Source: an uncultured bacterium
GTDB lineage: Bacteria > Patescibacteriota > Saccharimonadia > Saccharimonadales > Saccharimonadaceae
Assembly: GCA_903821365.1 (NCBI GenBank)
Contig: CAIJKY010000003.1
Coordinates: 1-64,000 of the forward strand
Length of the DNA: 64,000 bases
Reading direction: 5' to 3'
Both the position numbers and the translations under genes were made by a program. This document shows, piece by piece, positions 39,329 to 46,024 of the stretch (position 1 is its first letter; the number at the start of each line of letters is the position of its first letter). The notes beneath the pieces are model-generated. The model was not told where the DNA came from, did no database searches, and was given only the letters and a program-made list of their open reading frames with translations.

Positions 39329-39426
39329 GAGTGACCCGCTCTATGTTATTCGGCGCTTCTTTTATTCATCATAGCACGACTATGGGCTTTTGCTCGGCCG
39401 CCAAGTCCGCTATCATAGGGAGTAAT

Positions 39427-40653
39427 ATGAACACACACCAACACATCCTTATTGCTGGTGCTGGCTTTGGAGGGGTTCGCACTGCCCTACAGCTAGCACG
39501 CTCAACGCCGTACAAAATATCTATCGTCACTGATCAGGCGGATTTTCGTTACTATCCTGCACTTTACGCGACGGCAACAGGTCATTCGTACAACGAATCA
39601 ATTATTCCGCTTGATGAAATCTTTGCTGAATACCCCAATGTCACCATCGAGTATGATCGAATTACCCAGATAGATACCAGTGCGAAGCATTTAACTGGCG
39701 AGTCGGGCAAGCAATATACGTATGATGCGTTGGTTATGGCGCTTGGTGTTGTCACTAATTTCTTTGGCATTGAAGGCATCGAAAAGTATGCGTATGGCAT
39801 TAAAGGCAAATCTGATATCGCCGATCTCAAAGCGCATCTTCATAAACAGATCGCCGAAAAAGAACAGCTTGATGATAACTACGTCATCATTGGCGGTGGT
39901 CCAACCGGCGTTGAGCTGAGTGGCGCATTCGGCGCATATTTGGCCCACTTGGCACAATGCCACGATGTGACGCTTCGTTCAAAAATTCACCTTATCGAAG
40001 CAGCGCCTCGTTTATTGCCCCGTATGACTGAACGCACATCAGCACTTGTCGAAAAACGCTTAAAAGACCTTGGTGTTGAACTGCATCTTGGAGTAAAAGT
40101 CGAATCTGAGACTGCTGACGCCGTGATGATTAGCGGCGAATCGCTCAACACACATACGGTCGTCTGGACTTCGGGTGTTGCCAATAATCCATTTTTTAAA
40201 GAGAACAGTAGCAGTTTCACACTCGCACCAAATGGTCGCGTCCAAGTCGATGCTTTCTTGCAGGCTGCGCCGTCGGTGTATATCATAGGTGATAATGCGG
40301 CGACGCCTTACTCAGGACTTGCTCAAACTGCTCTGTATGACGCCGACTTTGTTGCCGGCAATCTCAAACGTGCGCTTCGCCAACAAGCACCCAAAGCCTA
40401 TAAAGCCAAAAAACCACCGGTTGTTATTCCAGTGGGAAGTAACTGGTCGGTTGTTGAATGGGGCTCTCTTGTGTTTGCAGGCTTCCCTGGCTCGTTGCTC
40501 CGACAAACAGCTGACTTGATTGGCTATCAAGACATCTTACCATTTATGAAAGCACTACGATTATGGCAGTCAACGTCGCATATAGAAGAAGAATGTGATG
40601 ATTGCCGCGCACCAATCGAAGAAAAAAACGCACGTCAGGTTCGCCATGGATAG
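39427..40653 (+). CDS. ndh: Type II NADH:quinone oxidoreductase
   Basis: 408 residues from ATG at 39427, with AGGGAG upstream. Two Rossmann folds: HILIAGAGFGGVRTA (FAD) near 5-20 and DNYVIIGGGPTGVELSGAFG (NADH) near 155-170, plus YIIGDNAATP and QTALYDADFVA near the FAD and quinone sites. Non-pumping NDH-2 that passes electrons from NADH to quinone. Divergent from cyoA, with about 100 bases between. Confidence 0.95.
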   Translation: MNTHQHILIAGAGFGGVRTALQLARSTPYKISIVTDQADFRYYPALYATATGHSYNESIIPLDEIFAEYPNVTIEYDRITQIDTSAKHLTGESGKQYTYDALVMALGVVTNFFGIEGIEKYAYGIKGKSDIADLKAHLHKQIAEKEQLDDNYVIIGGGPTGVELSGAFGAYLAHLAQCHDVTLRSKIHLIEAAPRLLPRMTERTSALVEKRLKDLGVELHLGVKVESETADAVMISGESLNTHTVVWTSGVANNPFFKENSSSFTLAPNGRVQVDAFLQAAPSVYIIGDNAATPYSGLAQTALYDADFVAGNLKRALRQQAPKAYKAKKPPVVIPVGSNWSVVEWGSLVFAGFPGSLLRQTADLIGYQDILPFMKALRLWQSTSHIEEECDDCRAPIEEKNARQVRHG

Positions 40654-40685: not shown

Positions 40686-40714
40686 TTGTAAATGTGTTTG
40701 CAAAACGCTACAAT
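40686..40714 (+). promoter_or_regulatory. Promoter of the glucan operon
   Basis: TTGTAA (40686-40691), a 17-base spacer and TACAAT (40709-40714), about 41 bases before the first start codon. Confidence 0.6.
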
Positions 40715-40755
40715 GGTAATCAAAGCACAACCAACATTCGGACATTTGCGGACGT

Positions 40756-41988
40756 ATGAATATTTTAATGCTAGGGTGGGAATTACCACCGCATAATAGC
40801 GGTGGACTCGGGGTCGCATGCTATCAAATGGCCAAGCAATTAGCCATCGATGGCGTGACTATTGATTTTGTCGTGCCCTACAGGGCTGATCACGGCATTG
40901 ATTTTATGACTATTCACCACGCCATTGATATGGCACCTGAGGCGCTGGCGACGCATGGCGCTTATGACAGTGCTTGCTATAGCTGCGACGACCAAGCCAG
41001 CTGTGATCATGATGTCCCCACTTCGTTAAGAGAGCAACAACAGCACTACATAAAACGTATAGAGCAAATTGTCGCCGCTACACAGCCAGATGTCATTCAT
41101 GCGCATGACTGGCTGACGTTTGAGGCAGGCATCAGAGCTAAAGAGCTTACCGGTAAGCCGCTTGTCGCCCACGTTCACGCAACTGAATTCGATCGCTCCG
41201 GCGAGCATCACGGTAACCCTCTAGTGCATGAAATCGAATATAACGGTTTGCTCATGGCTGATCGAATTATTGCCGTAAGCCAAATTACAAAAGACATTAT
41301 TGTCAAAGAATACAATATTCCGGCCGATAAAATCGAAGTAGTCCATAACAGCGTCGATGTTGCCGACTATCAATCGCTTGAGGATGAAAACACTTATCGC
41401 TATCTCACTGCCATGAAACAACGCGGCTATACGGTGGTTGTCAGCGTTGGGCGCTTGACGGTGCAAAAAGGCTACCGCTACTTGCTCGAGGCGGCTAAGC
41501 GCGCTATTGATAAAGAGCCTAAATTGTTATTTATGTTAGCGGGTTCCGGCGAGCTACGCGACGAGCTGTTGCTCCGCTCAGCTGAGCTTGGTATTGCCGA
41601 AAATGTTTTGTTTACAGGATTTGTTCGCGGTAAAGCATGGCGCGATGTATACACCATCGGTGATATTTTCATCATGCCTTCAGTCAGTGAGCCGTTTGGG
41701 CTTGTTGCACTTGAAGCAGCCGGTCATCACAATGCAGTATTGCTGTCAAAACAGTCAGGCGCCGCCGAAGTGCTGCACAATGTTCTAAAATTCGATTTTT
41801 GGGATACCGAAACACAAGCATCGCAGATCGTTGATATTGCGCATTATAACAGTCTTAAGACTACCCTGACTGACATGATTACCTATGAATTTAATCGCTT
41901 GTCATGGCAAAAAGCAGCCGACCAATTCCAAAAAATATATAGCCAGCTCAGCACCACTGAAGTATTAATGGCAAAGGCGCTCGCATGA
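40756..41988 (+). CDS. Glycogen synthase-like glycosyltransferase
   Basis: 410 residues, GT-B fold. N-terminal NSGGLGVACYQMAK resembles the donor-binding loop of starch/glycogen synthases; the C-terminal motif SEPFGLVALEA carries the two Glu of the E-x7-E motif. No signal peptide, so cytosolic. With GH57 and GH15 neighbours the likely product is an alpha-glucan. GT4 with another substrate is the alternative. Confidence 0.82.
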   Translation: MNILMLGWELPPHNSGGLGVACYQMAKQLAIDGVTIDFVVPYRADHGIDFMTIHHAIDMAPEALATHGAYDSACYSCDDQASCDHDVPTSLREQQQHYIKRIEQIVAATQPDVIHAHDWLTFEAGIRAKELTGKPLVAHVHATEFDRSGEHHGNPLVHEIEYNGLLMADRIIAVSQITKDIIVKEYNIPADKIEVVHNSVDVADYQSLEDENTYRYLTAMKQRGYTVVVSVGRLTVQKGYRYLLEAAKRAIDKEPKLLFMLAGSGELRDELLLRSAELGIAENVLFTGFVRGKAWRDVYTIGDIFIMPSVSEPFGLVALEAAGHHNAVLLSKQSGAAEVLHNVLKFDFWDTETQASQIVDIAHYNSLKTTLTDMITYEFNRLSWQKAADQFQKIYSQLSTTEVLMAKALA

Positions 41989-43277
41989 GTCACACCACAC
42001 ATCACCACGCCGCAGCGGCGAAACAAACGCCACGTGCAGTTGTACTATACCTCCACGTCCATCAACCATATCGAGTTCGACCCTACACGATTTTCGAAGC
42101 TGGCCATGATCACAACTATTTTAATCAAGCCGACCCAGCAGGTGGTGCCAATAACGAAACGATTCTTAAAAAAGTTGCCAAAAAATCATATATGCCTATG
42201 AACGCGGTGTTACTCGAATTGCTACATAAGCACCCAGAATTCCACGTTGCACTGTCCATCACGGGTACAGTCATTGAACAAATGGAGCAATGGGCACCTG
42301 AAGCGCTCGACAGTTTTCGTGAATTAGTGGCAACTGGCAGAGTCGAGATCGTTGCCGAGACGTATTATCATAGCCTCGCCTTCTTTTATAGTCGCTTTGA
42401 GTTCGCCAAGCAAGTTCGTATGCACGAAGATAAGATCAAACAGGTCTTTGGCGTCAAGCCACAAGTCTTCCGTAATACCGAGTTCTCTTACAATAATGAT
42501 CTTGCCTATTGGGCAGACAGCATGGGCTACAAAGGTATTCTGACAGAGGGCTGGGATCCGATACTCGGTTGGCGTAGCCCGAATTTTGTATATCGCCCAA
42601 GCCACACGAATAACATTCGTTTATTAATGAAGAACTATCGTATGAGCGATGATATCGCCTTCCGCTTTAGCAATCACAACTGGCGTGAATGGCCGCTCAC
42701 TGCAGATAAATACGTCCAATGGATCAACGACCTCCCAGCAGAACAGACAAACGTTAATCTTTTTATGGATTACGAGACATTCGGTGAACACCAATGGGCA
42801 GAAACGGGCATCTTTGATTTCTTGAAAGCCTTCCCCGCAGCGTTCCTGCAGCGTACTGGCAATACTTTCATGACCCCTTCCCAAGCAATTGATGCTTTTG
42901 CACCAGTCGACACAGTAGACGTCCCCTATACGATTACCTGGGCCGACACCGAGCGTGATCTCACGGCTTGGCTTGGAAACCCAATGCAGCAGCAAGCCAT
43001 GCATTTACTTTATGAGCTAGAGACTGATGTGCTTGCTACCGATGACCTTGGGCTGATTGAGGATTGGCGACGAATGCAAATCTCTGACCACCCATACTAT
43101 ATGTGCACAAAGTGGTTCCGCGATGGTGATGTTCATGCGTACTTCAGCCCATACGATTCACCTTATGACGCTTTCATGTATTATATAAACAGTCTACGTG
43201 ACCTAAAGCTCCGAATCGCCGAGCACAGCAAAAAACACACCACATCAGTTTCAGACCAACAAGGGGGCACACACTAA
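41985..43277 (+). CDS. GH57 family alpha-amylase-like hydrolase
   Basis: 430 residues. GH57 motifs: LHVHQPYR near the N terminus, FRNTEFSYNND with the nucleophile Glu, and MDYETFGEHQW with the acid Asp. No signal peptide. Four-base overlap with the glycosyltransferase gene. It probably cuts or branches internal alpha-glucan; alpha-amylase versus branching enzyme is not resolved by eye. Confidence 0.88.
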   Translation: MSHTTHHHAAAAKQTPRAVVLYLHVHQPYRVRPYTIFEAGHDHNYFNQADPAGGANNETILKKVAKKSYMPMNAVLLELLHKHPEFHVALSITGTVIEQMEQWAPEALDSFRELVATGRVEIVAETYYHSLAFFYSRFEFAKQVRMHEDKIKQVFGVKPQVFRNTEFSYNNDLAYWADSMGYKGILTEGWDPILGWRSPNFVYRPSHTNNIRLLMKNYRMSDDIAFRFSNHNWREWPLTADKYVQWINDLPAEQTNVNLFMDYETFGEHQWAETGIFDFLKAFPAAFLQRTGNTFMTPSQAIDAFAPVDTVDVPYTITWADTERDLTAWLGNPMQQQAMHLLYELETDVLATDDLGLIEDWRRMQISDHPYYMCTKWFRDGDVHAYFSPYDSPYDAFMYYINSLRDLKLRIAEHSKKHTTSVSDQQGGTH

Positions 43278-45242
43278 ATGGCACGACCAATCGTCTTAAG
43301 CAACGGCAGTTTGCATGTCGGCATCAATCGTTTCGGTATGGTGCATGACTTTTTCTATCCATACGTAGGACTCGAAAACCACTCGACTGCCGGTGCAATG
43401 CGTCACCGTATTGGAGTATGGGTTGATTACGAATTTAGCTGGCTTGACGATAACACATGGGTCATTGAGCAAACGTACCGAGAAAACACATTGATGGGCA
43501 TTACAAAGGCACATTGTGAGCGGCTCGGAGTAAGTTTAGAGTTTAACGACACTGTTGATAGTGAATATGATGCCTTTCTTCGTTCAATATCGGTGACGAA
43601 TACTCACGACAAGCCACGAGAGATACGTTTATTCTTGCATCAAGTGTTCCGCATCAGTAACAGTCTCAGCGGCGACACTGCACAGTACCTCCCTGGTGAA
43701 TCAGCAATCCTTAACTACAAAGGACATCGTGCATTTGTAGTTGGTGCAGCAAATCATCAAGGTCAATCGTTTGACCAATATGCGATGGGTGTCTTTGGTA
43801 TCGAAGGTAAAGAAGGCACTTTTCGTGATGCCGAAGACGGTGAGCTCTCAGGCAATCCGGTAGAGCATGGCCATGTTGATTCTGTCGTACGCTGCTCTTT
43901 CACGGTTGAGCCACAGGCGAGCGGCACTGTTAACTATTGGGTGGCATGTGGCAAAACTACACAGAATGCCATACTACTTCATCGCCAGTTGATCCGCGAC
44001 ACAGTAGCGCACCGCATGAGCGTTACCGAGCAGTCATGGCGTTATTGGCTTGGTAAGTCAGAGACACTTCGGGCAAGCATTGATCCTGAATTTCAAGCGA
44101 GCTTCACAAAGTCATTGTTGATTACAAAATCACATATCGATAGCCGCGGTGGCGTTATTGCTAGCACCGATACCACCATGCTTAACTACTCACGCGATGC
44201 CTACACGTATTGCTGGCCGCGTGATGGTGCCTACGCCCTCTGGCCATTGTTGCGCCTAGGATATCGCGATGAACTACAGCGTTTCTTTGAGTTCTGTCGA
44301 CGTGGCCTCAGCACTGATGGTTTTTTGAACCATAAGTATCAGTCCGACGGTGCGATTGGCAGCAGCTGGCATCCATATATCTACGCCGGCAAACCTGAGC
44401 CACCGATTCAAGAAGACGAAACCGCGATCGTCCTCTATATGTGTGGCGAGTACTACCGTGAAACAAATGACCAATTTTTCTTAAAGCAATACTACGATGG
44501 CTTTATCAAAAAGATGGCAAATTTCCTTGCGAGCTACATCGATCACGATACAAAACTTCCACATCCAAGTTATGACCTGTGGGAAGAAAAATTCCTCACT
44601 TCAACATATACAGTCGCAACAGTGTACGGTGCGCTGGTTGCTGCCATTGAACTAGCAGAAAAAGCTAACGATCCCGACAGCGCCGTGGCCTGGCAAGCGG
44701 TTGCCGATGATATCGCCGCCGCTGCAAAAACAACATTGTACAATAAAGAGCGCAAGTTCTTTTATAAGGGTATTCGCGCGGGAGGCGGTGAGATTTACTA
44801 CGATGACGTCATTGATCTATCAAGTTTCTATGGCGCCTTCATGTTTGGTCTATTCGCTATTGATAGTGAAGAGGTTACCGCCAGCTATGAAACAATTTGC
44901 CAAGAATTTGGTGTCTGTGTCGATGGCTGTGATGTAACACCGATGCCTCGCTACGAAAAAGACACCTACGATGCTGTTGATGCTAAGGGTTCGAATCCGT
45001 GGTTCATCACAACGTTATGGCTCGCTCAATACTACTTTGAAATTGACAAGCCCGAAAATGCTCGTGCTATTCTTGCATGGGTTCGTGACAAAATGCTGCC
45101 TTCGGGTGTGCTCTCAGAGCAGATCCATCCATATAACGGTAGCTTTATATCAGTCGCGCCGCTCACCTGGAGCCAGGCCGAGTATATCAATGCCCTGCTT
45201 GATATGGTGGCTCACCCAATGCCAGATAAGGCTACAAGCTAA
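43278..45242 (+). CDS. GH15 family glucoamylase-like hydrolase
   Basis: 654 residues. N-terminal beta-sandwich domain (about 1-270), then the alpha/alpha barrel with YCWPRDGAYALWP, SYDLWEEKFLTSTYT (acid Glu) and a C-terminal SVAPLTWSQAEYINAL (base Glu). Length and lack of signal peptide fit the archaeal/bacterial cytosolic type. Would release glucose from the glucan. Starts directly at the GH57 stop. Confidence 0.92.
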   Translation: MARPIVLSNGSLHVGINRFGMVHDFFYPYVGLENHSTAGAMRHRIGVWVDYEFSWLDDNTWVIEQTYRENTLMGITKAHCERLGVSLEFNDTVDSEYDAFLRSISVTNTHDKPREIRLFLHQVFRISNSLSGDTAQYLPGESAILNYKGHRAFVVGAANHQGQSFDQYAMGVFGIEGKEGTFRDAEDGELSGNPVEHGHVDSVVRCSFTVEPQASGTVNYWVACGKTTQNAILLHRQLIRDTVAHRMSVTEQSWRYWLGKSETLRASIDPEFQASFTKSLLITKSHIDSRGGVIASTDTTMLNYSRDAYTYCWPRDGAYALWPLLRLGYRDELQRFFEFCRRGLSTDGFLNHKYQSDGAIGSSWHPYIYAGKPEPPIQEDETAIVLYMCGEYYRETNDQFFLKQYYDGFIKKMANFLASYIDHDTKLPHPSYDLWEEKFLTSTYTVATVYGALVAAIELAEKANDPDSAVAWQAVADDIAAAAKTTLYNKERKFFYKGIRAGGGEIYYDDVIDLSSFYGAFMFGLFAIDSEEVTASYETICQEFGVCVDGCDVTPMPRYEKDTYDAVDAKGSNPWFITTLWLAQYYFEIDKPENARAILAWVRDKMLPSGVLSEQIHPYNGSFISVAPLTWSQAEYINALLDMVAHPMPDKATS

Positions 45243-45243
45243 T

Positions 45244-45915
45244 ATGGGTGCCTTCGATTTTCTTGTTCGCGGTGATGCTGGAAGTGCTATTAAAGCATTT
45301 GCCAACAAGTTTGACCTTGTCTATTTTGGCCACGTCGACCATCGCTATGATGAGCACGCCGTTATCAGAGGCGTAACCGCCAGCACGAGCCATGTTGATA
45401 AGCATTTTGCCGTCGGCAATGTTAAACAACGTGACGTGAGCCTCTTAGAGCGCACGAATCGCTTACGGTTCCCCGGCAAGGGAGAGAGCGACTATCATTG
45501 GGTGATCGTGCAAGTCGATTTACATTCAGGCTTAGAGTTGCCGCACACCTTTATGGACGCCCATCACCACGACGAAGTCTTTTATTCAAACTTGTTCATT
45601 AATTTCGCTAACTTTCAAGTTGCGACTAGTTTGTTTGTTGAGCATGATCCGAAATTCCTTGAGCACTTTATCACCTACGCTCCTTCGGATAAGTTTGACG
45701 ACGCAGCAAGTGTCCTAACCTCAAATGTAACAAGCATGTTGGCGCACCACTTTACCAACTTTGATTATGAGCTTGAAGGTACGACATTGTATATCTATAA
45801 CAGTGCGCCGAGCGTGCAAGAGAAAGATATCGAAGAGATGGTCCGGGTTGGTCTTTGGTTCGCTGATGAACTCGAAAAACAGCTTGTAAGTGCTGCGGAA
45901 ACTGTAAGCGCTTGA
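45244..45915 (+). CDS. Unknown protein, fourth gene of the glucan operon
   Basis: 223 residues from ATG at 45244, one base after the GH15 stop. No family recognised. His-rich (for example MDAHHHDEVFY near 99-109), mixed alpha/beta, no membrane segment. Could be an accessory or regulatory factor for glucan metabolism. Ends before a bidirectional terminator. Confidence 0.8.
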   Translation: MGAFDFLVRGDAGSAIKAFANKFDLVYFGHVDHRYDEHAVIRGVTASTSHVDKHFAVGNVKQRDVSLLERTNRLRFPGKGESDYHWVIVQVDLHSGLELPHTFMDAHHHDEVFYSNLFINFANFQVATSLFVEHDPKFLEHFITYAPSDKFDDAASVLTSNVTSMLAHHFTNFDYELEGTTLYIYNSAPSVQEKDIEEMVRVGLWFADELEKQLVSAAETVSA

Positions 45916-45972
45916 CAGCCGGCGTATTACCACCGCTGTCAAGGTCTACCTGTATCTGTCAAAAGTGCACAA

Positions 45973-45999
45973 AAAAATGCCCCGTGTGAGGGCATTTTT
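45973..45999. terminator. Bidirectional terminator
   Basis: AAAAATGCCC, loop CGTGTGA, GGGCATTTTT: a 10-bp perfect stem with T runs on both strands, between the glucan operon and rpmG. Confidence 0.85.
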
Positions 46000-46024
46000 G
46001 AATGTGCAGGGTTTGAGCCTGTGA

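Follow-up and report, generated by a model that had tools for sequence, protein, structure and literature searches.

The window analyzed here is a stretch of 64,000 nucleotides on contig 3 of a 1.03 Mb genome. Its assignment to Saccharibacteria follows from gene trees, in which its proteins cluster with records labeled Candidatus Saccharibacteria. It contains four plus-strand genes that lie head to tail at 40756-45915. The first three encode a GT4/GlgA-like glycosyltransferase (GT) of 410 aa (40756-41988), a GH57 enzyme of 430 aa (41985-43277), and a glucoamylase-type, oligosaccharide amylase-like GH15 enzyme of 654 aa (43278-45242), while the fourth, orf4 (45244-45915), encodes a 223-aa protein that is predicted to be soluble and TtfA-like/DUF3137-like. 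GT and GH57 overlap by 4 nt, GH57 and GH15 adjoin without a gap, and a single nucleotide separates GH15 from orf4. The operon had been placed at 40686-45915 by a sequence-only reading. While its four tightly packed genes stand, its start does not, as position 40686 is no start codon and GT homologues begin at 40756; 40686 is the -35 position of a promoter-like match that is no better than chance. On the 3' side of orf4, RNA folding reveals a strong, near-symmetric hairpin at 45966-46008 (-20.7 kcal/mol, z -3.55; none of 200 shuffles was equally stable), a probable terminator ending the operon. Inspection by eye found no N-terminal hydrophobic stretch in any of the four proteins, in line with the earlier statement that the three enzymes have no signal peptides.

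The gene upstream of the operon (39331-40653, plus strand) encodes an NDH-2-like pyridine nucleotide-disulphide oxidoreductase (PF07992, 2.2e-41) and adjoins cytochrome oxidase-like genes in this window. It directly precedes GT in some dozen divergent loci (besides this window L033, L034, L035, L058, L060, L064, L066, L077, L078, L080, and L309), and we regard it as a recurrent neighbor without counting it toward the glucan pathway. Natural fusions were considered as a functional clue and set aside: GT and GH57 share one frame in L082 (genome G065), split only by a TAG stop, and no fusion of GH15 with orf4 was noticed.

The GT matches PF13439 (5.8e-24), PF00534 (6.4e-24), and PF08323 (1.3e-14), and its best PDB match is the alpha-maltose-1-phosphate synthase 6tvp. 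It scores under the curated glycogen synthase cut-offs (127.4 versus 302.4 bits for TIGR02149 and 66.9 versus 328.45 bits for TIGR02095) and is a probable alpha-glucan synthase. GH57 matches PF03065 (6.4e-74). The published fingerprint of GH57 alpha-amylases comprises the CSR-3 arginine and glutamate nucleophile, the CSR-4 aspartate proton donor, and a terminal Tyr-Tyr in CSR-5, and the CSR-1 position is mostly Glu or Gln (PMC6037648). With the motif positions placed by eye from that description, the fingerprint is fitted at CSR-3, CSR-4, and CSR-5 by Arg163, Glu166, Asp262, and Tyr371-Tyr372, each of which shows at least 97% conservation across 52 sequences, while the CSR-1 feature is unmatched, with His instead of the usual Glu or Gln. 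Judged by these residues, GH57 is a predicted member of the alpha-amylase subfamily with both catalytic residues (Glu166 and Asp262) kept. GH15 matches PF00723 (1.1e-28) with 100.8 bits, above the cut-off of 22, and TIGR01577 with 297 bits, under the cut-off of 820.7; its motifs DLWEE (433-437) and WSxAEY (Glu635), which hold the catalytic acid and base, are conserved. Coordinates and Pfam matches thus bear out the earlier description of a glycogen synthase-like GT, a GH57, and a GH15 enzyme in one tight operon.

Other parts of a glucan pathway were sought in the same genome by tblastn with Escherichia coli proteins. This search located a GlgB/TreZ-like GH13 gene, a second GH13 gene, and two GalU-like genes. 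The match to GlgC was weak and fell on a GalU-like gene, so that no typical ADP-glucose pyrophosphorylase was found. MalQ and MalP gave no match at E 0.01, GlgP gave only a chance-level match (E 0.91), and no PF00343 phosphorylase was found in this genome.

The sequence-only reading had also called the cluster archaeal-style and perhaps acquired by transfer. A recent transfer of the enzymes from methanogenic archaea would agree with the resemblance to the gene set of Methanocaldococcus, and the sole characterized GH57 alpha-amylase listed in PMC6037648 is that of M. jannaschii. However, the trees of all three enzymes place the Saccharibacteria, in a group that includes two bacterial MAGs, within or beside other Patescibacteria (next to them for GH57 and GT, SH-aLRT 97-100), and far from the methanogens for both GH57 and GH15. 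These were quick trees with SH-aLRT support only, in which Methanosalsum and Methanomethylovorans represent the methanogens and M. jannaschii is absent; the GT tree contains no methanogen GT. Two archaea do stand beside Patescibacteria in the GH57 tree, and they are DPANN members, not methanogens. None of the trees placed the enzymes with secreted bacterial amylases. In addition, among loci that extend far enough, those of other families included, most have the operon beside TPR-holB-rluD-trpS, so that it keeps a single syntenic position throughout the order. In a pattern scan covering one genome for each of 84,980 species, the matches listed came from a mixture of phyla; among them, GT and GH57 are adjacent in many bacterial phyla and GT, GH57, and GH15 occur together in other Patescibacteria. 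Archaeal transfer was therefore rejected on the basis of these trees and synteny, and we consider it extremely improbable. The grouping with other Patescibacteria and the shared site argue instead for an old operon that was inherited vertically, with enzymes that are unremarkable among these bacteria.

The product of orf4 had been described as unrecognized, and library searches agree: there was no match in Pfam (no family at E up to 0.1), NCBIfam, or PADLOC, no credible match among PDB sequences, and no copy was found on plasmids. The gene recurs in the same gene order in dozens of genera, with identities down to about 20%, and is therefore no chance ORF. In a 37-member alignment, Gly43, Thr45, Asp52, Gly58, Arg70, and Glu176 are invariant and no histidine is conserved. 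The protein had further been termed His-rich; it does have 15 histidines in 223 residues (6.7%), but this is undistinctive beside the family mean of 6.0%, and the reading as a His-rich or metal enzyme was dropped.

Where libraries failed, structure prediction and profile comparison were informative. The AlphaFold model of orf4 (pLDDT 93, pTM 0.89) matches TtfA (PDB 6t84) in Foldseek with E 3.7e-6, probability 1.00, and TMt 0.70. TtfA is the sole PDB fold match under E 0.001, and the viral fold library gave no match at E 0.001. No TtfA sequence similarity was detected at E up to 10 in a profile search against PDB sequences. The orf4 family profile (A1) aligns with 330-aa membrane paralogs (hhalign 98.1%) and, over most of orf4, with proteins of about 450 aa that combine Tim44-like and DUF3137 domains (A2; hhalign 95.9%, E 5.4e-9), where hhalign E-values refer to a single comparison. 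PF11335, the DUF3137 family, is matched by 10 of 10 A2 members at E 0.01, and A1 and PF11335 match overlapping residues, for example in G016, G021, and G000. These comparisons link orf4 to DUF3137 and TtfA, and its product is best called a predicted soluble, stand-alone TtfA/DUF3137-like domain of an undescribed family.

The proteins of about 450 aa, encoded in L095-L102 and L104, have a Gly/Ser-rich N terminus and predicted helices in addition to their Tim44-like and DUF3137 domains. The paralog of this type from the window's own genome (L102, 514-1857) yielded a model with pLDDT 75, which matches Tim44/ARC6-type folds as well as TtfA (E 7.3e-5 for TtfA). Separately, a 184-aa ORF directly behind GH15 in G084 (L091, 4634-5185) could be a very divergent relative of orf4.

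Orf4 is closely linked to GH15. Full-length orf4 is present in 38 of 101 relatives and lies directly behind GH15 in 36 of these 38; the order GT-GH57-GH15-orf4 recurs, with GH15-orf4 gaps of -32 to 113 nt (median 1). In family f1, orf4 accompanies GH15 in 36 of 42 genomes and is found in none of the 19 genomes lacking GH15 (Fisher 6e-11, shared ancestry ignored). Across a sample of 393 genomes of the order, GH15 is present in 71 of the 75 genomes with orf4, as counted from two match lists; orf4 is thus not a gene that occurs mostly without the other three. The presence correlations are phylogenetically clustered, and an independent-pairs test for orf4 and GH15 gave two supported pairs, with too few independent losses for any claim of significance.

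This linkage might be read differently, with orf4 having a function unrelated to glucan and merely sharing the promoter and locus of the operon. In G082 and G085, an intact orf4 is retained at the syntenic trpS-rluD-holB-TPR site while GH57, GH15, and GT are absent genome-wide, and in G484 and G534 the stretch read around an intact orf4 contains no enzyme. Moreover, orf4 was not detected in 16 genomes of other families that encode both GH57 and GH15 (the layout was read in 14), and it is missing from 6 of the 42 GH15-bearing genomes of f1. Against this, orf4 is kept in none of the 10 f1 genomes that have GT and GH57 but have lost GH15, and it stays next to GH15 in genera that have diverged widely as well as in family f26. 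We therefore treat an unrelated function as a genuine, if tentative, possibility. Because four genomes retain orf4 with no enzyme found genome-wide (G082 and G085) or nearby (G484 and G534), orf4 may have a partly independent role.

The distribution of glycogen phosphorylase further relates orf4 to the way in which glucan may be mobilized. GT and GH57 occur together in 50 f1 genomes, GH57 occurs alone in two, and neither occurs in nine. Phosphorylase is found in 7 of the 10 GT-GH57 genomes without GH15 versus 4 of the 42 with GH15 (Fisher 2e-4, shared ancestry ignored), and in no f1 genome without GH57. The seven genomes are G002, G003, G004, G010, G013, G059, and G060, the enzyme being mostly present where GH15 is missing. 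Phosphorylase went unmatched in the other three. Both enzymes are missing from G012, while the genomes of G015 and G053 are 67% and 75% complete, the former with part of a GH15 gene where a contig ends. From this pattern, GH15 and phosphorylase seem to be two alternative ways out of one putative store, with orf4 following the GH15 route.

The enzymes might also merely consume imported maltodextrins, with the GT serving another glycoconjugate and no internal store being formed. The GT4-like character of the GT, under the GlgA cut-offs, and the failure to find a typical ADP-glucose pyrophosphorylase in this genome are compatible with such a role. However, GT and GH57 almost always occur as a pair in the family, they are neighbors in many phyla among the matches listed, a GlgB/TreZ-like GH13 is encoded in the genome, and phosphorylase is restricted to GH57 genomes. 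On this evidence, pure maltodextrin consumption appears improbable.

We therefore prefer the reading that the operon serves an intracellular alpha-glucan store and that orf4 is a non-catalytic accessory of its hydrolytic mobilization branch, with a probability of about 0.5. In this model, GT would build the polymer from nucleotide-activated glucose, with UDP-glucose as the probable donor, given that a GalU-like gene is present and no typical GlgC was found. A GlgB/TreZ-like GH13 encoded elsewhere would branch the glucan, the GH57 alpha-amylase would trim it internally, and GH15 would free glucose at chain ends, replacing the glycogen phosphorylase of related lineages. Orf4 would most likely act as an adaptor or chaperone for some component of the GH15 branch, binding it and thereby tethering or regulating mobilization. 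The internal glucan store proposed by the sequence-only reading thus remains plausible, as an intracellular module with a linked fourth gene is supported, although the archaeal origin attached to it is not; orf4 as a glucan-metabolism factor is likewise plausible. A more specific proposal, that orf4 is the first recognized soluble stand-alone TtfA/DUF3137-like member, dedicated to GH15 glucan mobilization in Saccharibacteria and lost upon replacement by phosphorylase, is rather doubtful.

Related papers mention that Saccharibacteria break down starch or glycogen and that animal-associated members have glycogen phosphorylase (PMC6031116, PMC10031880, PMC8406219); in the searches made, no description of this operon or of orf4 came up. 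The new part is orf4. Our analysis suggests that many Saccharibacteria, usually regarded as dependent episymbionts, may hold a carbon reserve of their own that can be drawn on by either of two interchangeable routes. It also ties an undescribed family to DUF3137 and TtfA, both poorly understood in role, and the small, apparently soluble product of orf4 should lend itself to pull-down experiments and structural studies.

Comparing the operon with known systems, GT-GH57-GH15 clusters of Kaiserbacteria, Yonathbacteria, Nomurabacteria, and other Patescibacteria contain the same three enzymes, which fall in neighboring tree clades. However, no orf4 was found in these clusters, their GH15 is about 40% identical, and some have a gap between GH57 and GH15. 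In the Bacteroidales debranching-GT-GH57 cluster, GT is likewise adjacent to GH57, which is 45% identical to that of the window, whereas a debranching enzyme is encoded there instead of GH15. In Parabacteroides, this GH57 (L109, 4998-6290) reads FMNYE where the window's enzyme reads FMDYE; the proton-donor Asp is replaced, and this enzyme may be inactive.

TtfA, the MmpL3-associated TMM transport factor, is a mycobacterial lipid-transport helper and an essential partner of MmpL3. TtfA (MSMEG_0736/Rv0383c) is the best fold match of orf4, while sequence similarity between the two is undetectable. As the function of TtfA is itself undefined, the shared fold names no partner for orf4. TtfA reportedly lacks an obvious lipid pocket (PMC7458404), in keeping with a non-enzymatic role for orf4, and has an N-terminal transmembrane helix (PMC7458404), whereas none is visible on inspection of the 223-aa orf4 sequence. 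The DUF3137 (PF11335) membrane proteins similarly carry an N-terminal hydrophobic region and, in some cases, a Tim44-like domain, whereas orf4 has neither and does not match PF11335; it is through a profile-profile match that these proteins, including the saccharibacterial Tim44-DUF3137 proteins, are connected to orf4.
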